DNA from: Brachionus manjavacas
Taxonomy: Eukaryota; Rotifera; Eurotatoria; Ploima; Brachionidae
DNA length: 64,000 nt
Reading direction: 5' to 3'
Assembly (NCBI GenBank): GCA_019054805.1
Contig: JAHQIY010000005.1
Location: 1,533,501-1,597,500, forward strand
The translations under genes were made by a program, and so were the position numbers. Positions 1,610-57,465 of this stretch are shown here, piece by piece. Every line of letters starts with the position of its first letter. Position 1 is the first letter of the stretch. A model generated the notes under the pieces. It had not been told where the DNA came from and made no database searches. It saw only the letters and a program-made list of their open reading frames with translations.

Positions 1610-2290
1610 ATGGACTCAAATTTTTTGCTTGAAACAAACTGGCCAACGTTTGGACAAGGAATCGTATCTGGGCATTCAAAAACTTTGCATGAATGGTGCG
1701 GTAATATTTCGAAATTCGTCCTGGAGCTTTCAAATCATGTGAAACATCTAGAGGAAAGAGAAATTGAGAAAGACATTGATTTAAACAAACTGAAATCTGA
1801 ATTGGCAGCAGCAAATAAAACAGCAAACTCATCCAACATCAGTAGTCAGTGGGTTCAAGTTGTAAAACAAGGGACAAAAAATGCAAAAAAACCAGCCGAC
1901 CAGATAGCTGTAGCAAATGCAACCATCAGCGAAATGAATGAAAGAATCAAAAGAAAAAAAATGTGTTTTTTATGGTGTGCCAGAATCAAAGAAAGAGATT
2001 CTAACAGACAGGAGGGCAGAAGATGAAGAAAAAATCAAACAAATTTTGACCACTATTGGAAAAGGTGATGTCAAGCCAGCGTATTCAAGACGCTTGAGAT
2101 CGAAAGACCAAAGTAAACCAGGCCCAATTCTAGTAGAACTCAAAGAAGAAGCAAACAGAAATCCACAACTCCTAGCAGCCAAAAAGTTGCGAGATTAAAA
2201 TAATTTCAAATCTATTTATCTTAGTCCAGATTTGACTGAAACCGAAAGAGCTTTAGACTATGAATTGAGGAAACAAAGAAACGAAGCAAA
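1610..2290 (+). pseudogene. LINE ORF1 (L1-ORF1-like RNA-binding protein), frame broken
   Basis: The first frame runs 1610-2026 and contains a charged coiled-coil-like stretch (residues about 35-75). The message continues one frame over from about 1938 to 2198 with CVFYGVPESKKEIL, RRLRSKDQSKPGPILVEL and LLAAKKLRD. This order of motifs resembles the RRM-like domain of L1-type ORF1 proteins that coat the transposon RNA. The frame change lies in an A8 run near 1956. A stop at 2196 is followed by recognisable coding sequence (IYLSPDLTETERALDYEL) up to about 2320. ORF2 begins immediately downstream on the same strand. Confidence 0.75.
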
Positions 2291-2292
2291 TA

Positions 2293-5246
2293 ATGGTCTT
2301 TCACAAGACTCGCCCTTTTGATATGACATCCGTGGAAATCAGATCGTCAAATTCAAGAAGCAATAATCGTTCATCAAAAGCGTCATCACGTGTGGATAAT
2401 CTCGAATCTTTAAAATGTATGTATTTAAATGCTACTTCCTTGGACAATAAACTTGATGAATTCAGTGTTGTTATTGAAACATATAGCCCACAAATTGTGG
2501 CAGTTAGTGAGACTTGGTTTAAGAGCAACTCAAATGCAAACATTAAAGGATACAATTTGTACAGAAAGGACAGAAGTGATGGACGCAGAGGCGGGGGTGT
2601 ATGTCTCTACATTGATGAAAATATCGATTCATTTGAATTAAATGATGCAGGTTTTAATTTAAGTAAAATAGAACAAATTTGGGTAGTTGTTAACTTTAAC
2701 TATGAAAAGTATTTAGTTGGCTGTCTTTATAGGCCAAACGATTTTGTTGATATGAACGATTTTGATTTAAACTTCAAGCAAGCTAAAGACTATGTGGATG
2801 AAAGAGGTTTTAAGGATATTCTAATAATGGGTGACTTTAACTTTCCATCAATCATCTGGTCAAATGGCTGTGTTTCAGAAATCTTAAACGAAAATGGCAT
2901 CGAACATAAATTCAGCGAGAAGCTAAGCGACACTTTTTTATATCAGCATGTAAATGTTCCAACATTTCAAATGTCAAACGAAAAAGCTGTCAACACTTTG
3001 GATTTGATTTTTACGACTCAGTCTGGCAGTGTGTATGCAATCGATACAAAATTTGTGCTTGGTTACATTAATAAAGGACATCTGGTTATCTTTTTCAATT
3101 TTGTACTCAAAAACAAGGTTAGTAAGGAATCATATATTATTGAAAAATTTCTTTATAGTAAAGCTGACTTTGAAAAAATTTCTGATTTTTTATCAAATAT
3201 TGATTGGGTGCACTTATTTGAGAATTTAAATATTCAGGAAATGTACAATGAGTTTATTTTCTATGTCAGCGAAGCTAGTAATCGATTCATTCCAGTGACG
3301 GATGGCTCTAAAAAGAAAAGTATCTCGAAACCTTGGATAAAAGATGATCTCAAGATCTTAATTAGGAATAAGAAAAATCTTAGATACAGGAACTGTTCAT
3401 GTAACTGTAAGGAAATGAATCTTTATAATGATTACAATAGTATCTGTAAATTAGTTTCTTCGGAAATAAAAAGAGCCAGACTAACTTATGAACAAATTTT
3501 AGTAGATAAAGCTAAGAAGAATCCAAAATTATTATACAAATATCTAAATGATCAACAAGTAATCAGAGAATCAATCAAAGCATTAAAGAAGTCAAACAAT
3601 GAATTAACGCAAGAACCGAAAGAGATATCAAATCTACTAAATAAATTTTTTCAAGATGTTTTTGTTATTGAACAAGATGGGGAGCTGCCACCTTTTGTAG
3701 CTGAACTAAATGAAAACTGTTCAGAATTTATTGACATTGAACCAAATGATATTAGTTATGAAGTGGTTTATAAAAAATTACAAGACCTTAATCAAAATAA
3801 ATCATGTGGTGTAGACAAGCCTCATCCGCTATTGCTAAAAAACTGTGCAGAAGCCTTTACTGTTCCTTTAACTTTAATTTTCAGAAAGTCTTTATCAAAT
3901 AGTCAGCTTCCAATACAATTCAGATCAGCAAATATTACTCCATTGTTTAAAAAAGGTGATAAATCAACGGCCAGCAATTATCGTCCCGTGTCTTTAACTT
4001 CAATTCCGTGCAAAATAATGGAAAGCATAATAAGAACCAAAATGGAAGACTATCTTTATAAGAACAATATTATATCTAAAGAAAAGCATGGATTTGTCAG
4101 GAAAAAGTCATGTACATCTAATCTTATGGAAACTCTAGATTTCATCTCAATGAGTCTAGACAAAAGTATTCCTGTTGATGTAATTCTGCTAGATTTTGCG
4201 AAAGCATTTGATACTGTTCCGCACAGACGACTAATAGCTAAATTGAAAGCGTATGGCTTTGATGGTCTGACACTAAAATGGATTGAAGCTTTTTGAAAAA
4301 TAGAAGACAACGAGTTGTTCAAGGTGAAATTTTGTCGGATTGGGTTGAGATTTTTAGCGGTGTACCACAAGGATCAGTGATTGGTCCACTTTTGTTCGTT
4401 TTGTATATCAATGATCTACCAAAAGGAATAGAGAATATTGTCAAAATTTATGCAGATGATACAAAAATATTCTCGCAAACGGTATCAGAAATATGCGCAG
4501 TGAAACTTCAATCAGATTTTGATTTAATTTTCAAGTGGACTCAAGATTGGCTTCTTCTCTTCAACACATCAAAATGTGTGGTTATGCATTACGGTCATAA
4601 AAACAAAGAATTCACTTATTCTATTAATGGTAAACAGTTATCAACGTCTGAAACCGAAAGAGATCTTGGAGTTATCTTCAATACAAATCTCAAATGGAAA
4701 AACCAAGTGATAGAGGCTACAAACAAAGCAAATCAAATGTTGGGTCGCATCAGGAAATCATTCGCTCGTTTTGATTGTAAGTTATTTAGTTCATTGTATT
4801 TAACTTTTGTTCGTCCTCTTTTGGAATTTGCTGTGCCTGTATGGTCTCCATTTCTTAAGCCGGATTGTGAGAATCTTGAGAGGATTCAACCCAGAGCTAC
4901 GAAATTTGTTTCTTCAATTAGAAACAAACCGTATGAAAGCAGATTGATGGCTTTAAACATTCCAAATCTGGTGGAAAGAAGAAAAAGAGGTGATCTAATT
5001 CAATTATACAAGTTCATGCATGGAATAGAATTGGTTGAAAAAAGCAACAATTTTAATGTCACCAAAATCCAAGGAAGAGGTCACTGCTTCAAATATCACA
5101 AAGAAATTTCGAGGCTCCAACATAGAGATAACTTTTTTTTCAACAGAACCGTTAACATATGGAACTCACTGCCAAATCAATCAGTTGAAGCCCCTAATGT
5201 TAACAGCTTTAAAGCAGGCATTGATTGCTGGATGAGCAGCAATTAA
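2293..5246 (+). pseudogene. LINE ORF2 (endonuclease-reverse transcriptase), CR1/jockey-like, single frameshift
   Basis: Two long frames, 2293-4296 (667 codons) and 4293-5246 (317 codons), make one ORF2 of about 980 residues, the normal size. The N-terminal 240 residues are an exonuclease/endonuclease/phosphatase-type endonuclease with SETW, GDFNFPS and TLDLIFTT, but the usual SDH motif reads KGH, so the catalytic Asp is absent. The RT domain has LFKKGDKSTASNYRPVSLTS, LLDFAKAFDTVPH, GVPQGSVIGPLLF and an intact YADD; the C-terminal half ends in NIWNSLPNQSVEAP. The only frame break is one base in a T run at 4291-4295, inside RT between the SLTS and VPQG motifs. A 3' UTR follows to about 5280. 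Confidence 0.9.
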
Positions 5247-16938: not shown

Positions 16939-17821
16939 TTACTGAATAGTGTCACATTCATTATATAGATCATTATATGTAGATTCGTCAACTTTAATGA
17001 ATCGTTTTTCCTTGAAGCTAAACATATAAACATCATTGGTATTTGTATCGGTCCACAAAGCATAACCTCTAAGCAATTTTTTGGCTATCTTATCTTTTAA
17101 AAAATTATAGTTATTCACATTTTTCAGTTGTTTTAGGGTATTAATCTGAAAAAAAAATTATTATTCATCCAATAAGTTAAGAATCATAGAACATTACCAT
17201 CGAAAATTTATCCCTAGGGCTAAATTGATTCTCTGGGTCAACATAAGCTTGAAATTCATTTGGATGTCCTTCAGAAAAAGTCAAGCATTTATTGAATCCA
17301 CTTCTTTCAAACTCTTTAAATTTAGTAACTGTATCGCTTCCATTTAATATTAGCCATTTTTTTAGAGCACTTGAATTATCAGTAGCATGATTATCCAATT
17401 TATCTTTCATATCATATAGCATATTAATAGGCTTAAAGAATCAAATTTAATAAAGCTTTATTAAAAAAATTGAAAGTCATACTCTTGAATTAGAATGTCC
17501 AAAAACAACTATAGTATTAGCATTGTTGTTAACACATGCAAGCTCAAGAGCCGCGGGAGTTCCGCTTGCTACACTGTTTTCACTAGACTCAAATTTTGGA
17601 ATAAATCCACCAGGCGATCGGATCAGAAAAAAGGTGCCTGGTTGAGCCTGAAGAAGACGAGAAACCACAATTCGACTATCAATGCCGGTAACAATAGCCA
17701 TTTTGGGAGAAGGCTTGTCTAATATTTCTCTAAATATTGGTAATAACTCGGCTTTGATGGTTTTTTGATATCTTAAGATACCGTCAACAATTTTGCCCAT
17801 TCCTTTATTTACGGCTGTCAT
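16939..17821 (-). CDS. beta-carbonic anhydrase family protein lacking two zinc-ligand cysteines
   Basis: Three exons, 17483-17821, 17198-17431 and 16939-17145, both junctions in phase 0, introns 51 and 52 bp; 259 residues, as expected for animal beta-CAs. The whole fold is recognisable: N-terminal IVDGILRYQKTIKAE, the active-site strand VTGIDSR, IRSPGG where VRNAGN is usual, PAALELACVNN, VVFGHSNSRP, YVDPENQFSPRDKFSM and a C-terminal ALWTDTNTNDVYMFSF. In active enzymes the zinc is held by Cys (CxDSR), His and Cys (HxxC). Here the first Cys is Gly (GIDSR) and the second is Ser (HSNS); His and the Asp-Arg dyad remain. The frame, splice sites and length are intact, so it looks like a maintained pseudoenzyme rather than a dead gene. 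Function unknown. Confidence 0.9.
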
Positions 17822-18798: not shown

Positions 18799-20205
18799 TT
18801 ATTTTTCATTATGATTTTGATCACTTTTATCATCATTATTGTTTTCAATTTCTATTAAATTGACATTCTTTAAATAATCAATCCACAATTCATATAGCAA
18901 ATCAATAAATATTAAATTTCCAGCCACATTTTTAACTAAATGTAACATCAGAACACCGTCAGTATTCAAATAGTGTTTATAAAAATCTTCAACATTTTTT
19001 TTCAAATCGTTGAATATAACTTGACGTTTAGTATTTTCTTCGTTTGATCTGATCATATTTTTTCTAATATTCAAATACTTGTACAAAAAACTAATTTTTT
19101 CTGAATAAAGCATTTCATAAGCCCATGCCAAAATGTTCATAATTGTAAGAAATAGAAGCAATACATACCAAAACCAGAAAATTACAAATATTTTTTCGAT
19201 TAGAATATTAATGGACAAAAGACATTCGACTGAATACCAATAAATTTTATTCAAATTGTTATGGACAAAAAAGTCACATATGGTTCTGATCGGAAATTGA
19301 GTTGTCAAATTGTAAGGGTTTCTGTTTTTCCACAACGAAATAAAAAAATCAATGCCATATGAGTAAAATTTTTTGCCAAATATTAAATGTAACAATATCA
19401 ACTGGAAAACAATATTGGATAAATTTAACAATTTTAAAATCATATAATGCCTGGTCAAATTTCTTAAGCCCTCGTTTGGTCTCATAAAACTCGTTATTTT
19501 ATTTTTTGAAATAATGGTTGTTTTTAATAAGTTTTTAAATCTATGTTTTAAATTCTTAGAAGAAAAAGAATCGGAATCACTTAGTTCTTTTGAATAATAT
19601 GAAGATTTTCTCTCGTGGGATTTTTTTTTCTCGTTCTCTTGATGAACTATTGAATTGAAATTGGTTGTGAAAGTTTTTTTTAACTCATCATTGACCAAAA
19701 GAGGAGCCATTTCAGTCTCCCTAGACATTGAACGCAATAACCCTGTTGTTTTTGGTGTATTTTTTATTGATTCCTTTAGAACATTTTTTTTATTTAGTTG
19801 GTCCAAAAGCTTCTTTACATACCCTCTAGAGTTTGATGATATTATATTCCAAGCGAAATCAGGTAGCATAAATAACAACGCTTGACCAAATAGGATGAAA
19901 AGAATAAATTGATAGTAGTGAATAACATATTTAGGACTTTGAGGGAACAAATCTGCATCATTAACTTTTGGATAATAATAGGTATTGTTAATCCAACAAA
20001 TTTGGTGAGTGTAAGCTGTTTGACTATCACTTAAATGCGTCGGAAGCCAGCAGTTTATACCACGTCCATCTCCCAAACGTATTAGAATGACAGCTATGGA
20101 GACAAATATTACAACAATTGAATATTTGCTGTGAATTTTATCAATAAAGTCTCCACGAATTGCATTATTTTTTACTGACTGATAAGCTTCTAATATTTCG
20201 TCCAT
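18799..20205 (-). CDS. innexin (gap junction / hemichannel protein)
   Basis: Single uninterrupted frame of 468 residues. Innexins form intercellular or plasma-membrane channels in protostomes. Four membrane segments at about 28-44, 97-116, 258-278 and 333-358. Extracellular loop 1 has GRGINCWLPTH and YTHQICWINNTYYYP (Cys52, Cys70); loop 2 has TICDFF...YWYSVECLLSINILIEKIF (Cys310, Cys328); these two pairs are the family hallmark. The YYQFILFILFGQALLFMLP segment is the conserved start of TM2 with its Pro. The cytoplasmic loop (about 120-250) is long and rich in Ser/Lys. No intron was found, unlike most multi-exon genes in the window. Upstream ATGs in frame were not seen. Confidence 0.95.
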   Translation of the reverse strand: MDEILEAYQSVKNNAIRGDFIDKIHSKYSIVVIFVSIAVILIRLGDGRGINCWLPTHLSDSQTAYTHQICWINNTYYYPKVNDADLFPQSPKYVIHYYQFILFILFGQALLFMLPDFAWNIISSNSRGYVKKLLDQLNKKNVLKESIKNTPKTTGLLRSMSRETEMAPLLVNDELKKTFTTNFNSIVHQENEKKKSHERKSSYYSKELSDSDSFSSKNLKHRFKNLLKTTIISKNKITSFMRPNEGLRNLTRHYMILKLLNLSNIVFQLILLHLIFGKKFYSYGIDFFISLWKNRNPYNLTTQFPIRTICDFFVHNNLNKIYWYSVECLLSINILIEKIFVIFWFWYVLLLFLTIMNILAWAYEMLYSEKISFLYKYLNIRKNMIRSNEENTKRQVIFNDLKKNVEDFYKHYLNTDGVLMLHLVKNVAGNLIFIDLLYELWIDYLKNVNLIEIENNNDDKSDQNHNEK

Positions 20206-21739
20206 TATCCAAAAGTGTTTAAAATGTTGAGAAATTTAGAAAACAAAGTTTGGAAATCCAAGATAAGCTTGAATTTATCAAAAATTTAAGATAAGCTAAG
20301 TTAAGTGCTTTTTATTCATAACAGAATTTCATGATTATATTTTATTTCTTTAAATTATTACAAATATTATATTATCTTATTTATTTATCATTAAACTGAT
20401 ATAGGACCAAAGTGTTTTTTGAAAATATTTAACTAATAGGTTTTTTAAACAAAGGTTAATTTTTTTAAAATATTTTTCAAATTATTTTAAAATAAACTAT
20501 TGATTTCATAGACTTTATAATTTTTTTACAAGATGTAGTCCAACAAAAAAAGAAAAACCCGCATAAGTTTATCATTTTTATTGATCATATGTTCTGCCTT
20601 AAAAAAAAACATGAATAGATGAGAGAGAAAAAACGTGATGCTATTTTTAATCAGTATTTTAAAAATAAAACAAAAATTGTTTATACTTTGTCTTTTTTTT
20701 ACCTGCCGATTTTTCTTTGATAAGCAAGTCCAATAGTTTATAATTTTGATATTTGAAATCAAGCTTTTCAAATTTTTTATTATTTTAAATTTTATATTAA
20801 AAAATAAAAAAATTGAATTTTTTTTTGGACTCAATGCGGCATAAAGGGAAATTTATAATATATTTTATGAAAATATGCAAAAATTTCATCGGATTAACCT
20901 TGAAAACTCTCCTACAATTACATAAATGTATTTTACCTAAATTTTTTTTTTTTTTTATTTTTGTAGCAATTGAAAATTACTACAAATTAGCTCTGATAAT
21001 TATTTATAGAAGGATAAGTTAAGTGCAAAAGTTCTTCCTTAACTAAAATTGCTACTTCTCCTTCATAGTTATTTCTTATTAAACGATTATTGATTGATTA
21101 TTTTTAAATCGGAAGAAATATTTGTTTCACTCAAATCAATTTTTATTTAATAAGATTTACAAAAAAATCGTAATAGTTTGATATACTGGCCTCTTGGTTT
21201 GATAAATCTAAATGTCCATTTGATCCAGAGTTTAACGCAGAACTTGCATCTCGTAAAATTACTGTTAAGGCTGTGACTTTACGAGATGCTTGTTGCTATA
21301 CGAAAATTCTAATTTCCATAAAAATATTTATGACATGAAAAAGAAAAACGAATATACTGCTCCTTCTGTTCCATCACTCAACTGACCCAAAATCGTATAT
21401 GGAATAGCTCACAAAAATTAAAATGATTCTGATGAATTTAAATTAAAATTCAATTTAAACTAATAAAAACATCCAATTTTTATAAAACTTTTTACATCAG
21501 TCATATTCCAAGTCTATTTATTTTATTTTTATTTTATTTTATTTTATTTAAAAAGGAAAGCCGCAACTAGGGCGATTTTGGGAGATGGAACGTCAATCGT
21601 GGACCTCCAGTACTCTTATTGAAATTACTAGTATATTTATAATTGTACAAAAGGAATAATAAAATTTTTTTTAATAAAATATATATATAAAAAAAATAAA
21701 ATAAATAAAAATAATTTCCTTTTTTTTTTTAGCTATTGA
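20206..21739. other. intergenic; hairpin and T-rich retroposon-like tail
   Basis: Frames at 20526-20834 and 20813-21022 are AT-driven and not credible. A perfect 12-bp stem (21246-21257 with 21278-21289, loop 20) lies inside a short block with coding-like composition (WFDKSKCPFDPEFNAELASRK). 21510-21720 contains TTTTA repeats, a GC-richer block near 21560-21610 and further TAAAA repeats, resembling a SINE or a LINE tail. Confidence 0.35.
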
Positions 21740-39419: not shown

Positions 39420-42075
39420 AATTAAGACAAAATAAAATAAAAAGCTTGGCCAAAAGTCCACTCCGGAAAGTGTCACTGGGAAAAAGGCTCGGACTAGCAG
39501 GAAAAACAACAAAAACACCAAAAACAAAGAAAACGAAGAAAGTATGGACTTTACGGACAAGGAAATTGAATCAGAAGCCTCAAAACTTCTCAATCTCAGT
39601 TCAAGCAAGCCAAATTCTTAATTAATTTCAATTTTTCTTATTAAATCTTATTTACTTATTTATTATATTTTTATTAAATTTTTATAAAATGTCTAAAAAA
39701 AACCTTAAAACGCCTGTTCTTAAAATTGTCCATTGGAACTGCAATTCACTGTCCAACAAAAAAGAACTTCTTGAGCTTCTAATTATTAAACACCAACCCG
39801 ACATAGTCATGCTAAATGAAATTAAGTTAGATAAACAAAAAGCAAATAGTTTACTCAATATCAGGGATAATCTGAGCATTCACAAATGTAGAAATTCTAG
39901 AGGGGGTGGAGTTGCAATATTAATAAAAAATAATGTTGAGTTTAATGAATTGGTAGAACTCGATTCACTAAACTTTGAAATAATTGGAATTAAAGTCCCG
40001 GTAAAAATTGGTTCCCTAAGGAAAAACATTAACTTAATAAGTATCTACCAGCCACCAAATCATAAAAATCTATTAGACCCTAGTATATTCGAATATATTG
40101 AGAAACACTTCGATTACTTCGTAATTGGTGGTGATTTAAACTCGAAGCTAAGTAGTCTAGGTAACAAAACTAATGATAATGGTAAAATTTTGGAAGATAT
40201 TTTAGAAGACCCACGTTTTCTAATAGCGAATGACGACTGTCCTACCTTTACACTTAGTCATCGTGATTACTCCTCTGTTTTAGACCTCTTCATACTAAGT
40301 AGTAATTTAGGCTCACATTTTAATTTTTTTCGGGTAATAGACGATGACTTGCTAAGCGATCATTTTCCTATTGAGCTTGAACTTGGATTTGAGCCACTGA
40401 AAATTGAAAGTAATCACAGATCTACTCTCAATTACAGGAAAGCTAACTGGGAAAAATTTAAGAGAAGTCTGGACTCTTGTGTTTTTGACTTGCTGTCAGG
40501 TGACATAAATCACATTAACAGTCAAATTTCTACTCAAATACTAGAAGCAGCAAATTCTGCAATTCCTATATTTCCACCAAAAAAATTTAAAAAATCACTT
40601 CCGGCCTACATAGTAGAGCTAATTTCCAAACGCAAAGTGTTAAAAAGTCAAAAACAAGACAAGGTTAACCAGGGCGGAGTGTAATAAGCTTACTAATAAA
40701 ATCAGATTTGAAATAGAAAAATTCAAAAGCGAGAATTGGGATACATTTCTTAAGTCTCTTGGGCCTAATCCAAACTCTTCCCGTCCTTTTTGGAAAAAAG
40801 TTAATTCGTTTAAAAAAAACTCCTCCGGCAATGTTATCCCCAAACTGGTCCTCAATTCAAAAGAGTTTAACACAGATTCCGAAAAAGGTACACTTTTTAA
40901 AGAGATTATTGGAGAAACCTTTACTCAAGAAAGAAATGATTCCTTCGACAATAACTTTCGAGACATGGTCGAAGATTTTGTATCAAATAAGGATTATCTG
41001 AAAGGCAATCATTATTTGAATGCCGAAAAGTCTTTTCCTAAAATCACAATTGAAGAGCTAAAAAAAAGCATTAGAAAACTAAAAGACGAATCAGCCCCTG
41101 GACCTGACAACTTATGTAACCGTATGTTGAAAAATCTCCCTGACCCGTTCATAATCGGTCTAGCGAGTTTTTTCAACCTCTGTCTAGCTACATCCGAAAT
41201 CCCAGATGCTTGGAAAACATCTAAAATAACAATGATCCCCAAAAAAAAAGTTAGTTCTGATAATTTGTTGTCTTTTTTTTGGCATTTTTAAAGCATTTGA
41301 TAGAGTTTGGCACGATGGACTAATTTACAAGATAATTAGAATTAATCTACATCCTTATTTTATTAATTGGATAATATCGTTTCTTCATTTGAGATCTTTT
41401 AGAGTAAATGCAAATGGACATCTGATGAATCAAAACCTTATTAAAGCAGGAGTTCCTCATGGGTCAGTAATTAGTCCACTTCTTTTTAGCATTTTAAAAA
41501 TTACAAACCAAAAAGAAACAAAACAAACAGCCGATATTCTCTTCTTTTTTGCAGATGATTTGGCTAAATTTTTTTTTTTTCAAAAAGATTTGAAAACTAT
41601 AAATATGGTTAATAATTACATAAAATGAGTGGAAAGATGGCTTTTCAAGTGGAAAATGAAAATTTCTATTGAAGAGTCATGTTACATGATCTTTGAAGAA
41701 AAAAACAAAATTAAAATCAAATTTGACCTTAAAATTATAATTAATGGTAATAATTTAAATAATGAGGAAAAAGCCAAATTCTTAGACATCACACTAGATT
41801 TAAAATTTACTTTTAATCTAATGGTGGATGAAACAAAAAGGTGCTGTAATTCAAGACTTAAACATTAGGTAGTCTTTTCAAATCTTTGAAAGGATAAATC
41901 TTGGATTACTTTTTCCTTGTTTAGATTCATTCTCATAAACTTGCATCTAAAAAATACAAGTTATTCAAAATTAAGCAATTCGATCTATTTTGAAGCTGAA
42001 ATATTTTATATATTTTTATTCTGAAAGAGTATTACCTTGGTACAGATTCACAAATAAATAAAAAAAAATAAATAA
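39420..42075 (+). mobile_element. non-LTR retrotransposon, 5'-truncated and internally deleted
   Basis: Starts inside ORF1 (39440-39618: basic region with KKARTSRKNNKNTKNKENEE and a stop). ORF2 begins at 39689. The 3' end at about 42015-42075 has CTGAAAGAG, CTTGGTACAG and AAAT units, the shared LINE-end design. Confidence 0.85.
39689..41868 (+). pseudogene. LINE ORF2 (endonuclease-reverse transcriptase), broken
   Basis: 39689-40684 encodes a complete endonuclease with MLNEIKLDK, GGDLNSK, SVLDLFILS and SDHFPIEL, so its catalytic residues look intact. A frameshift near 40675 leads to 40690-41260 (linker and early RT, KLKDESAPGPDNLCNRMLKN, DAWKTSKITMIPKKK). A deletion near 41270 removes the next RT motifs and the frame resumes with FKAFDRVWHDGL, AGVPHGSVISPLLF and FFADDLA (the YADD box as FADD). 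A stop at 41626 and an early end at 41868 leave the C-terminus missing. Confidence 0.88.
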
Positions 42076-50189: not shown

Positions 50190-51560
50190 TTAGATGGAAT
50201 TACACTTTAGAGAAGTTCTAAATAGACCAGAATCTAAAGCGTCCTTAAAACCTGGACCAGCAAGCACTGACCTCGATATTGACACCGAAGTGCCAAGTGT
50301 GAAAGAAATAGAAATGCGATAAAGGCTCTGAAGAACAGAAAAGCCCCAGGTATTGATGGAGTCACAGCAAAAATGTTGAAAGCTGACGGTAGGATCACAA
50401 TAGGGATATTGCAAGACCTCTTCAGCAATATATGGCGGCATGAAATCATGCCAGAGGACTGGTCAAAAGGCCTAATAGTCAATTGATTTGTGACGATTGG
50501 CAAGGAATAACACTGCTACCAATAGCGAGCAAGGAACATCATAGAACAAAGCCTGGAATGCAATAGCCCGCTGTATCTAAACTTCATTGACTTCAAGAAA
50601 GCCTTTGATAGCATACACAGAGAAACCTTGTGGGACATATTAAGGGACATATCTTATGGCCTGCCACAGAAGATAGTTAACTTGATTAAACTCTTCTACG
50701 AGAAATTCGAGCGTGATTCTGGAAAAAGGACAATATGAGAGCTTCATTATGTGTACAGGAGTCAGACAAGGGTGCGTTCTCTCTCCGACTCTATTCCTAA
50801 TATTGATTGACTATGTCATGAAGAAAACAATTGCCAGTGCGAGGGGTATACAATGGGAATTAACAGCAAAGCTTGAAGACTTAGACTTTGCGGACGATCT
50901 GGTGCTAATATCTAATACAGAAGCACATATTAAGACACAAGAGTTGGCGAACAACGCTAAACCAACCGGGCTCGAAATAAATGTGGCCAAAACGAAAGTA
51001 ATGTGCATAAACACCAAATTGGATACACCGATCACCATCGATGAAACACAAATCGAGTGTGAAGTGAATTCACAAACTTAGGAAGCACTATCAGTACAGC
51101 GCTGGGAACACACAGAGACATTCAGAATAGACTTGCCAAAGCAAAGAGTACTTTTGCTAAACTCCGACCAGAAAGGAAATCAAACAGCTATAGCAAGGAA
51201 ACAAAACTTAAACTATACAACAGTGTAGTAAAAGCAACACTAATGTACGGAAGTGAATGTTGGGAGATGTGTGAATTTGACAGAAAAAGTCTTAACACCT
51301 TCCACATTGGAAGCCTGCGGAGGATTCTCGGAAAACACTGGCCTAAGACATTGTGGAATGCTGACCTATAAAAAAGGACAAATTCAGCGCCATAAAGACT
51401 ACAATGGCTAGGACATGTACTTAGAATGAAAGAAACACGGATACCAAAAAGAGTCCTTCAATAGACACCTAAAGGGCGACGTAAGGTAGGATGACCAGCA
51501 GTAGCATGGAGGTCAAAAATCACGAAAGAGCTCATCGAAATGGGAATGACATTTTTTTCT
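50190..51560 (+). pseudogene. RTE-like LINE ORF2 remnant
   Basis: Frames switch repeatedly but cover a large part of ORF2: EVLNRPESKASLKP, ALKNRKAPGIDGVTAKMLK, FIDFKKAFDSIHRETLW, then 50713-51081 with CTGVRQGCVLSPTLFLILIDYVM and LDFADDLVLIS (active-site box), then LAKAKSTFAKLR, YGSECWEMCEFDRKSLNTF, RRILGKHWPKT and finally WLGHVLRMKETRIPKR and PKGRRKVG. This order is typical of RTE-like or related elements without an RNase H domain. At least five frame breaks and several stops. Another copy of its tail lies at 30600-30745. Confidence 0.9.
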
Positions 51561-51973: not shown

Positions 51974-54900
51974 TTACAAATAAAATAATTTATCACACAG
52001 TAAATTATGATGCTCTTTGTGTAATGACTGTCCAACAAGGTAGGCTAATTTATGAGCATACTGACACGTTGCTGGTACTCGGATAGTTCCCGGCCAATTA
52101 TAATACATATGACACATTTTATAAGTCATCTTTTGATACAATTCTGGTGCAAGATTTAATTTGTCGTAAACAACATTGAAATGAGTCGGATTTACGGTTC
52201 CCTGTGTGACACATTGTGGAATTAGATAGAAATCAAACCATTCCTGTCTGGTAACAACAGTATCAATAACAGTACCACATGGCGGATTGTCCAAACCTCT
52301 TCCGGTTGATGCAAAAAATCTGGCGTTCACTCGTTTCTTGACAACAATAAACGACAGCAATGGACTTTAAAAAAATTAAAATTAAATTCATTTGAAATTT
52401 TTAAGATAGAAAATTTCACTTGTATTTTGGATCAATTAAGCTAAATGCTTTTTGAATTTGCGGAATTTCAGATTCCATAACTAACTGAAGCTGTCCATCA
52501 CTGACACCGTCTCTGTATATAACTATCCGTTTAGGAAATGTCTGATTAGCTCTGTAAAAATGTTCACAAGCCGCTTAAATAATAAAATTAAAAAAATTAA
52601 AAAAAATTTAAATTTTTTTTATTACATTTAACAGTTAAAGTAAGATTGTAAGCCAATTCCTGGTGCGTCTCTTGGATCATTGCTCGCGAAAAAAATCTAC
52701 TTTTATTTTGGTTGTAAGTAGCAACAAAAGCGCACACGCTGCGGTTCTTTTTCGAGCTGTCATGATAAGTATCGATTCCACAAATCATGGTATCCGTCAA
52801 TGGAATGTTAACAGCCCATATTTCTCCGCCAAGTTTGGCATTCATTTGAATAGCTACTTTGGTTACAATACTCTTGTGTTTGCGATCATCCTCTAAAATT
52901 TTAGTAGTCACTACTTGACTAGGCACAGGGCTTTCCAAGCAGCAAATTCGCTTCACGGCGTCGTAAATGTCTTTGCGCTTGGATGTTAGCAAAACAACAG
53001 CCATTTGTGTCGATTGATTGACATGAGATTTGAGTGCGTTGACTAAAGATTCGGCATTGTCGCGGGGAATTGAAATTTCTTGAGGAGCATCGGCGAAAAA
53101 TTCCATCGGTTTGGAGACCGATCGGAAAGTGTTCAAAAATTGTGTGGCTGTGTTTCGTTTGCTCTGCGGAAATATGATGATCCAATTTTTTAGCTTAATT
53201 GTTTTTAATAGAGGACACCCTTTCAAGTCATTGGTCCAGTCTGCACGTTCGTTCAATTTTTTAAGTATTTCCTAATGTAAAAATAATTAATATTTTTTTA
53301 AATAAAATTTTTATAATATTCATTTTACTCTGCCAAATAAAAGTGTTTCGAATTGAAGTATTCTTCCATTTATCTCGACTGGTTTTGATTCGAAATCCAT
53401 TTGCCATCGTTCCAACTCTCCTTTTACTTTTTCATCTACCCTGAATCGCTGCACAAATTCGGAGAGGCGTTTGCATCGATCATTTGGTCCGACTTTGGAA
53501 AAGGTCTCCACAGCTTTTTTAAAATTAAAGTCCATTCGCATTTTGTCATCGACTCCTGTTAGTATGCAAAGTTCGGGTACTAGCAAAATAGGCCTAGTTA
53601 CACCTCTACGTTTATCTTTTGCACTGGGCAGAATGCTCAGCAGTGGTTGTGCCGGGTCTTTAATTTCCAGTTGATAATTCTTAATAAAAATTTTACTATT
53701 TTTTTCAATAAAAAACAAATGGATTCAAATTTAAAAGCTAATCTTTGAATTTAATTATTAGAATAGTGAAGTTTAGAGGAATGGAAAGATTTTCAGTATG
53801 AAAATAAATTTACTATGAGGTGTTAGAAGACTCAAGAAGTATTTTAAGCTTGTCAAAAATTCTATACTGTTTTTCACTAATTTTTTCCTTGGATTCAGCT
53901 ATTTTACAACTATTTGTGTGGTATGGCATAACTAGATTTTGAAAAGCAAATCACTTCCAAGCGAAGGTCCAGCGGGTGGCATTCGATGTCATCAACATAA
54001 GATGAGTAAACAGCTTATCAGGACAAAACAACGAGACAACTTTCTGACAAATAGAGTAGTGAACAGTTGGACTGCCTGCCGAATTAATCAACACACAATC
54101 GAAGAATAGCTTTAAAAACCAGATGGATAATTTTTAAAAATTAAAAACGATTACTTTACTTTGGTATCTTTCTATTATTTTTTTTATTTATTTATTTCAT
54201 TAGACGCCTTAAAGGTGATGTAAAGTAAAAAAATAAAAGAAAAAAAGAAAAAAATTAAGCAGTTTAATTCTATTTTATTTATTAAGTTTTTATTCTATAA
54301 CTTCAAGATAACTTTAATATAACTTTATAACTTAACGGTATGTAAAACCAGACACCTACCATAAGGAGGCTACGTCTAGCCTTGCTCCGCAGGTCTCCTT
54401 ATGTAGCTTAATTTTTTATTTTTATTATTTGAATTAATCGCTTCATATTCAAAATAATATAGAATTGTAAAATAAATAAATAAAAGAAACCATTGTAAAT
54501 TAAAAGAAGCTTTTTAGACTTTTTTACCGAAAAAATTGAACTTTCAAGTGTTAAAAAAATTTAAGTTTTTAGAATTTAAAATAAAATAGTTACATCAAAA
54601 TTCAGAATATTACACGTATTTTTAATTCAATATTTAATAATTAAATACAAAGAAAATACATAGTTTATGAATTTAGATATAAAAAATTTGTTTTCAACTT
54701 AATCGGCATAAGTTGTCAATTTTTCATGGGAAATCTAGAGATATTTTAAAGAAATTTTTTTTTTTTTAAATTATTTAAAAAATTTTGAAGAAAATTTCTT
54801 TATTTTTCTTCGAAATTAAATTTCGATAAGTAAATAAAAGAGTTTTCTATATTATAAATAGAAATTAGCTTCGTATTTACTTCAAGAAAATTTTATAATA

Positions 54901-57465
54901 ATTGTTTTGTTTTAATTCGGAAAAAAGTAAATTTTTGTTTAATTTAATTTTTCATTTAAGACCTATTGTGGTGATGTAATTTAAGATATAAATAAAAAAT
55001 AAATTTTATATTGGACTTAAGCGTTAGAAATTATCATATGTTAATATTTTTTTTATTTGTGACGAGCAAAGGCTACTTGAGAAAAAAATATCTAAAAGTC
55101 ACAACAAAAGTTAAAATACAAAAGGACAATTATGTAATAAATCATCAATAATTAATTTTTTTTTTAATTTTCTTATGATCAAAAATTATATAAATTATGA
55201 TCACTTTTTGTTTAATTAAATTGTGATATCTAATAATCGTAATAATTAAATTTAATTGCATATATAAAAATAATCATTAATTAGGTTTTAAAAAATCATT
55301 ATTTTTATCCGATCACATATTAGACATATTCTATACCAAAATTACTTTAAATTTTAAAGTACTTTCAAAAAAAAATATTATTATTCTGCATTTTGCTCCT
55401 GTTCCGTTGATCTTAACCTTAACTTCATTTCTCCTTAAGTTTTGATAATTTAAAATGGTAGAAGCTTTTTAATAAAATATTATTTTTAAATTTTTGATGT
55501 CCTTAATGTTTTATTGCTTAAAAAACCTTAAAAACAAGTAACCTAACCCTTTTTTTTGTTGACACAAAATCTTAAATATTTCTAAAATATTAGTTTGATA
55601 GTTAAAAAAATCGCTTTAAAAAAGTAGAATTTCATTTTTTCATACTAACGGATTTTGAAAAAATCCCAAAAATCTCTTATATTCGGATGACAAATTTAAA
55701 TACGATTTTATTACAAGACAATAAAGAGTAAAATTGATTATAAAAAGATATAATCGGGCGAGACACAAAGTAGACTTTGTTAGAGGTCAAAAAAAGAATT
55801 TAAAAATCTATTTTTTTCAAGATCATGAGATTAAAATCCCTAAAGAAAATTATCTAAGATTAATTTATTTGAATTTAAATTGGTGGTTAATGATAGATGA
55901 AATTAAATTAAAGTTATTATAAATTAAATTTAGGTTTTATTCTTTTAGGAACAACTTCTCGTTTAAATAATCCTGCAAATTTTTTTAAATTTTACTTCTT
56001 TATGTTTAAAAGAATTATAAATAAAAATATTTTTTTAGCTGAAAAACTTTTTAATTATTAGATAAGGCTTGCATTCGAATTAATTTTCGATAAAATTTTT
56101 CTTTGCTTTAACCTATCGCTTAAACAACTTTTCCAAAACGAGATCCAAATGAATGGTCCAACTCATTTATCCAAAGTTTAAGAAAGCATCAAGAAAAATT
56201 TCCTCTGAATACATGCCAACCCTAACACTTGATAATATTCTGAAAAAGATAGAATTTTTTTTCTTTTTTTGAGACACTGGTACAAAAATATTTAAATTAA
56301 ATTTTTTTACCTTTTTATAATAATCTATAAATGTTGTTGTTCCATATAAGGTTTCAAATTTATCCGATGGTTTTGTGTCCCAGTCGATATCGTTAATTCT
56401 ATAAGTCTTGTCATTGTATTTGGTCATGACAATACGTCCAATTAATTCATTCGAACATAGCTCTCGGAATTCGTTGTCATTACGAGTTCTTTCATACAAA
56501 TCCATCATTACCTTGAACACTGATGTCTTATGCAGCAATTTGTGTATCATTTCAGCATTAAGCAACAAGTGATGTTCATACAAAGCAATCGAGGTGGCAA
56601 ATCCATTTATCAATTCCAGATTGTAGCGCTCAATTGTTATCTTATTTCTCAAATCATAATAATTTCGGTCGATTTCTTTCATACCATACAATTTAAGACA
56701 CCTTCTGAATACCAAGTTGAACAAATGAACAAAATTTGGAGACTCGGGCACAATTTCAGCAATCCTCTTTATTTTTATTGTGATAATAGCTCCGTCACTT
56801 TCTCTCTTGCTGGCCACTTCGGTGGTTTCATTGTGCAACTTTGTGAGTGAGTAGAGAGTGCTGCCATCGAATGCTTTGTTCATGGGAAAAAGGTGGTCAT
56901 GGTTGCGCATCAGGCCAACTCTGAGTTTACGCGAGTCGATCTGTGGCGAAAAATCCACATGATACTGGTACAAAACCCAGTCTGGAGAATTAATAATCTT
57001 GAAATAGTTGCACATCAATTTGACTGGTTGGCCACCAGTTCCCACAGTATTGACTCTATCTTGAGGCCTGGTGCGGTACACTTGTTCAATCCTCATTTCG
57101 CGTTTGGCTTCAGGCTCACCTTCCCGCAAAGACATGCGTTCCAATTGACCGATTGCAGTTGATGCTCCCGCTTGAGCAAAGGCGCCTCTGACCGAGGCTC
57201 GTCCTGATGTTGTCGAAGTTCTCGGCGGCGAGTGCTGCTGGGGTGGGCTCTCGCCGCTGCTTCGACTCACTGGTGAAATTTGTCCGCTCTGCATGCGCTC
57301 CTGCTCTGCTGCTATTCCTCTGCCGCGTCCTGTTTGTTCCGCTGGCGGAATCGGTGCTCGCTGAGGAGTGGTCACCTTCGGAGTTGTACCTTCTCCTGGC
57401 GCTGGTATTGGTGTTGGCTGTGGCACTGTGCTAGTGCGAGCTCGACCGCGTGATCGACCTGACAT
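51974..57465 (-). CDS. PIWI: Piwi subfamily Argonaute protein
   Basis: piRNA-guided RNA slicer that silences transposons, usually in the germline. Five exons: 56311-57465, 53329-53679, 52626-53271, 52420-52573, 51974-52364; 898 residues. The N-terminus (1-110) is Arg/Gly/Pro/Ser-rich with GRSRGRAR and GRGRG, possible sites for symmetric Arg methylation and Tudor binding. Then an N domain, PAZ about 290-400 ([33 protein letters not shown]), MID and PIWI. The slicer tetrad appears complete: D669 (GIDTYHD), E703 (MIQETHQEL), D739 ([10 protein letters not shown]), H873 ([10 protein letters not shown]). The C-terminus FYL fits the family. Intron 1 is 2631 bp and carries an antisense LINE end; the other introns are 52-57 bp. 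Confidence 0.97.
53940..54205 (+). pseudogene. LINE ORF2 C-terminal end in Piwi intron 1 (antisense to Piwi)
   Basis: Plus-strand frames encode [19 protein letters not shown] then, after one shift, [21 protein letters not shown], the standard LINE ORF2 terminus. A T-rich UTR and TAGACGCCTTAAAGGTGATG follow near 54203, similar to a second tail at about 54960 (TAAGACCTATTGTGGTGATG). Confidence 0.75.
54330..54485 (+). repeat. retroposon tail with hairpin in Piwi intron 1
   Basis: A GC-richer block with a 9-bp stem (CATAAGGAG at about 54361 with CTCCTTATG at about 54397) is followed by an AT-rich stretch ending in AAAT units at about 54472-54484. It resembles a SINE or the end of a LINE. Confidence 0.45.
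55000..56310. other. rest of Piwi intron 1
   Basis: AT-rich; the 62-codon frame at 55734-55922 is Lys/Ile/Leu-rich and I give it no weight. Confidence 0.3.

Follow-up and report, generated by a model that had tools for sequence, protein, structure and literature searches.

What becomes of a carbonic anhydrase (CA) that has lost most of the residues holding its catalytic zinc, and can an animal keep such a protein? This question is raised by a beta-CA family gene of the rotifer Brachionus manjavacas, located in a stretch of 64,000 nucleotides (assembly GCA_019054805.1, contig JAHQIY010000005.1, positions 1,533,501 to 1,597,500), which is hereafter called the window and whose first letter is position 1. 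The parts of the gene are as follows, where C4 denotes another contig that carries a paralogue of the gene.

16939..17821, minus strand: beta-CA family gene, 3 exons, 259-codon frame ending in TAA
17483..17821, minus strand: exon 1, 113 codons (residues 1-113), with the N-terminal stretch, GIDSR (46-50), IRSPGG (67-72) and HSNS (109-112)
17432..17482, minus strand: intron 1, 51 bases, GT...AG, at a position different from those of the C4 paralogue introns
17198..17431, minus strand: exon 2, 78 codons (residues 114-191)
17146..17197, minus strand: intron 2, 52 bases, GT...AG, located where the C4 paralogue has its last intron and in the same phase (KFSM|INTL, phase 0)
16939..17145, minus strand: exon 3, 68 codons and TAA (residues 192-259), matching the C4 paralogue at 31 of 67 aligned residues

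The initial annotation had described an intact gene of 259 codons in three exons, and this was borne out by the joined frame, which runs to TAA with no stop or frameshift and with GT-AG borders at both introns; an in-frame stop lies one codon 5' of the ATG. GC content of the coding sequence was 0.41, 0.34 and 0.25 by codon position, higher than that of the introns and flanks (0.18-0.21). The 259-residue product matched the Pfam family PF00484 (Pro_CA) with 50.2 bits (E 4.4e-13, cut-off 25.7), and residues 10-118, mostly encoded by exon 1, matched the pea beta-CA 1ekj in a comparison with PDB sequences (E 9.8e-9). The gene is thus a member of the beta-CA family.

At the active site, the CxDSR motif reads GIDSR, the HxxC motif reads HSNS and VRNAGN reads IRSPGG. 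These readings, already given in the initial annotation, agree with the codons (G46 GGC, D48 GAT and R50 CGA in the first motif; H109 CAT and S112 TCA in HSNS), and the IRSPGG stretch is encoded as R68 CGA, S69 TCG, P70 CCT, G71 GGT and G72 GGA. Both zinc cysteines are therefore replaced (G46 and S112), leaving one of the three zinc ligands, His H109, together with the Asp-Arg dyad of D48 and R50. Glycine has no ligating side chain and serine is a poor zinc ligand, and from known chemistry the usual Cys2His catalytic zinc site cannot form when the two cysteines are missing. The retention of D48, R50 and H109 would suit a protein that is still a metalloenzyme or hydrolase, acting on another substrate or with a different metal site, formed for example by D48, H109, S112 and water; we regard this as improbable, since neither replacement residue is a good ligand and few protein ligands are left at the site.

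A search of the same genome for a second beta-CA with both cysteines had been proposed, and one was found. Pfam search of the whole assembly (114,169,980 bases, 61 contigs) gave three beta-CA matches, namely the window gene (contig C5), a gene on contig C21 and the following gene, which is read here as a host gene.

Contig C4, locus L002, 1332-2257: beta-CA paralogue, four exons, 256 amino acids, with CVDSR and HADC

No further copy was seen in protein searches of the assembly, in which the best candidates were scored, and two weak extra matches (E 1.97 on C28 and E 0.24 on C7) were judged to be due to chance. The window and C4 proteins are 40% identical (102 of 256 aligned residues), and the two genes have only their last intron in common. 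The C4 paralogue has a TGT codon at each cysteine position. To return TCA to TGT or TGC requires two base changes and GGC at least one, so that both losses together amount to at least three. An assembly or base-calling error masking the cysteine codons would accordingly need at least three wrong bases in two codons 66 residues apart within an otherwise clean frame, and the flanking residues also differ from those of the C4 paralogue, which speaks against a mis-joined copy; we consider such an error very remote. Comparison with C4 also qualifies the third motif. The IRSPGG reading is real, but it is weaker evidence than the initial annotation held, because the intact paralogue itself deviates at this motif (TRNPGS).

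Duplication of the animal's own beta-CA is the best explanation for the origin of the window gene. Origin as a retrocopy was rejected on account of the introns, one of which is common to the window gene and the C4 paralogue, and transfer from the C21 bacterium was also rejected, as the C21 and C4 proteins are 26% identical, compared to 40% between the two host genes, which moreover share an intron. C21 is likely the chromosome of a symbiont or contaminant, because its beta-CA is one open frame with other bacterial-type genes alongside. This bacterial-type contig (1,221,242 bases) carries at locus L001 the single-frame beta-CA, reading CSDSR and HSNC, along with transporter-like and ankyrin-like proteins (both below the NCBIfam cut-offs) and the only COX1 match of the assembly. 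The assembly also contains 30 stretches matching alpha-CAs, grouped by hand into 13 loci, indicating that the animal is predicted from sequence to have CA genes besides the beta class. Five of these 13 loci are on C11, including two close pairs, and some of the stretches contain in-frame stops, which may reflect introns or decay.

The loss of both cysteines was then set against bacterial relatives, collected in one scan with a small sample whose search pattern permitted Gly at the first Cys site. Both cysteines were present in all 22 bacterial loci returned and in the C21 copy. Three of the loci (L015, L016 and L017) read CSDAR and HENC and stood outside the conserved-column and rate counts described below, for which CxDSR was required and 19 of the 22 loci were kept. 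Viral contigs searched with the window protein and the C4 protein gave no relatives. Published alignments agree: in passages of the animal beta-CA survey PMC2918522, CxDxR and HxxC are described as perfectly conserved, and passages of PMC4793742 report both motifs in all aligned sequences, 57 of which are in its figure. The sequences were, according to parts of the respective papers, selected via active-site patterns in PMC3907363, and those mismatching in conserved regions were deleted by hand in PMC9980027, so dead relatives could be overlooked in surveys filtered in these ways. The passages of PMC2918522 also mention incomplete amphioxus beta-CA sequences with no active site, perhaps from a pseudogene or incomplete sequencing, and cite C. 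elegans Y116A8C.28 as active and describe BCA-1 as complete in its active-site residues. The initial annotation knew of no described beta-class equivalent of a dead CA in animals, and no acatalytic animal beta-CA was named in the literature searched, which comprised titles, beginnings of abstracts and passages, with subscription papers mostly outside; the portions of PMC4981384, PMC4207490 and PMC5746736 consulted held nothing bearing on such a protein.

Is the window gene, then, kept, or is it a copy recently freed from selection that is decaying and has stayed stop-free so far? The evidence on constraint comes from one genome. In favor of the former, the frame is open over its whole length with proper splice sites, coding GC exceeds that of the introns and flanks, and the state of the gene was rarely reproduced when the C4 coding sequence was allowed to mutate freely in simulation (4000 runs at each of 8 nominal divergences): the runs that lost both cysteines without acquiring a stop never numbered more than 3 of 4000 at a given divergence, indicating that three changed bases in the two Cys codons together with an intact frame are improbable under free drift. 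Relative-rate counts of the window protein against C4 were significant with none of 20 outgroups (p 0.073 to 1.0), although these outgroups, made up of the 19 retained loci plus the C21 copy, are interrelated and distant and give little power. A dN/dS calculation had also been proposed as a check, and in pairwise comparison with C4 the nonsynonymous (dN) and synonymous (dS) divergences were 0.55 and 2.20 by NG86 (dN/dS approximately 0.25) and 0.52 and 1.22 by LWL85 (approximately 0.43); the ratio points toward constraint, only as a hint, since dS is at or near saturation.

Several observations weigh against a kept protein. With dS saturated or nearly so, the dN/dS ratio is weak evidence and is not assignable to the branch of the window gene. 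Among the simulated runs in which both cysteines were lost, those free of stops made up 3 of 19 (about 16%) at a nominal divergence of 0.05 and 3 of 72 (about 4%) at 0.1; a stop-free frame is therefore not rare if release was recent, and a young decaying copy has to be reckoned with. The unique changes of the window protein exceeded those of C4 with 17 of the 20 outgroups, being fewer with 2 and equal with 1. Near-invariant columns tell the same way: among 46 columns shared by at least 90% of 11 near sequences (10 bacterial loci plus the C21 copy), the window protein keeps 18 and C4 keeps 23, and 8 were lost by the window protein alone, compared to 3 by C4 alone. These 8 include both cysteines, and the other six window-only changes are N69S, V74I and V101A together with, by the paralogue's numbering, L199V, I223T and G226N. 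Lastly, an AlphaFold model of exon 1 alone, built on an alignment of 8 of the 11 near sequences with the window exon and a piece of a C4 exon, was poor (mean predicted local distance difference test score (pLDDT) 61.2, predicted template modelling score (pTM) 0.41).

The low identity to C4 would, like the changed columns, suit a decaying copy. Against this stand the uninterrupted 259 codons, the GT-AG splice sites and the rarity of such an outcome under free drift, and we consider recent release from selection the less likely course, with a real though minor share of the probability. The metal ligands have been lost while the remainder of the protein has changed somewhat more than, and not significantly unlike, the intact copy, a pattern that fits a kept protein without proving one. 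Judging from the absence of decay and the rates, it is reasonably probable that the window protein is kept for another job.

As to what this job may be, we lean slightly toward a kept beta-CA-fold pseudoenzyme with some binding role, for instance as a dimer-type subunit. Foldseek search with the exon 1 model returned 11 PDB chains with E ≤ 0.001, all of them beta-CAs (1ekj, 5swc), with a root-mean-square deviation above 8 and a template modelling score below 0.5 from a low-confidence model, and is taken solely as agreement with the sequence match. Beta-CAs function as dimers. The N-terminal stretch is retained in the window protein, and residues 3-35 were modelled, at low confidence, as helix in exon 1. 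Passages of PMC9980027 describe, for both the pea beta-CA and a dimer model of SmaBCA, N-terminal helices that run alongside the partner monomer, and it is because of this arrangement that a subunit role is proposed here. In such a course of events, a host beta-CA would have been duplicated and one copy would have lost both cysteines, abolishing the normal zinc site while the protein was retained. By analogy with the carboxysomal enzyme CsoSCA, the product may then serve as a non-catalytic dimer subunit, whose partner could be itself or the C4 enzyme; that it pairs with the active C4 paralogue is a tentative suggestion, with the balance of probability against it. The emptied pocket might also serve as a site for a ligand or partner. 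Parts of PMC11086599 describe a parallel in CsoSCA, a beta-CA domain whose zinc site was lost, probably following duplication, with the regulatory ligand ribulose-1,5-bisphosphate (RuBP) binding near the defunct site.

The surroundings of the gene in the window were as follows.

18799-20235, minus strand: innexin gene (PF00876, 218 bits), one long open frame, upstream of the beta-CA gene on the same strand
52597-57465, minus strand: Piwi-type exons, with the Piwi domain at 52597-53271 and the PAZ and Piwi N-terminal domains at 56167-57465, assumed to be a single gene
2269-5246, 39626-41628 and 50686-51081, plus strand: open frames like those of long interspersed nuclear elements (LINEs), with endonuclease and reverse-transcriptase features (2269-4296 scanned for domains, the others read by eye)

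Innexins are animal proteins, and the neighbouring innexin gene and the Piwi and PAZ exons indicate that the beta-CA gene resides in animal DNA. In the innexin frame, a long stretch was read by eye between the membrane parts. Across the assembly, five TTAGGG units in a row occur at 22 places, some of which overlap, and all are TTAGGG although the search pattern also permitted TTAGGC; five TTAGG units in a row occur nowhere, and given the usual telomere types this argues against a typical arthropod or nematode as host. A spliced-leader sequence of bdelloid rotifers had no match when up to 2 mismatches were allowed, which is mild evidence against a bdelloid.

Known systems offer both likenesses and differences. 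The animal beta-CAs of Drosophila (DmBCA), nematodes (BCA-1 and BCA-2) and Schistosoma (SmaBCA) belong to the same Pfam family as the window protein, and by their published descriptions the intact active-site motifs of the C4 paralogue agree with theirs, whereas the window protein, unlike these enzymes as described in the portions of the literature consulted, has neither the Cys of CxDxR nor that of HxxC. A further likeness is with the C-terminal domain of CsoSCA from the alpha-carboxysome, which, according to passages of PMC11086599, is a unit of beta-CA fold now without its zinc site, the loss having probably followed duplication, and forms a pseudo-dimer with the active unit; as described there, it is however bacterial, fused within one chain and highly divergent, whereas the window protein is encoded by a separate animal gene. 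The CA-related proteins CA VIII, X and XI, named acatalytic in parts of PMC3907363, are dead CA paralogues retained in animals, but they belong to the unrelated alpha class and serve as an analogy only. It is conceivable, though we would not expect it to be the likelier outcome, that the window gene encodes the first animal beta-class CA-related protein, a conserved zinc-free subunit regulating the C4 enzyme or a ligand sensor in the vacated pocket, having arisen independently of the alpha-class CA-related proteins and of the dead domain of CsoSCA. Conservation of the gene in sister species would mean that the beta fold, like the alpha fold, has given animals an acatalytic protein, and the gene would then provide a natural test of the roles of beta-CA dimers beyond catalysis.
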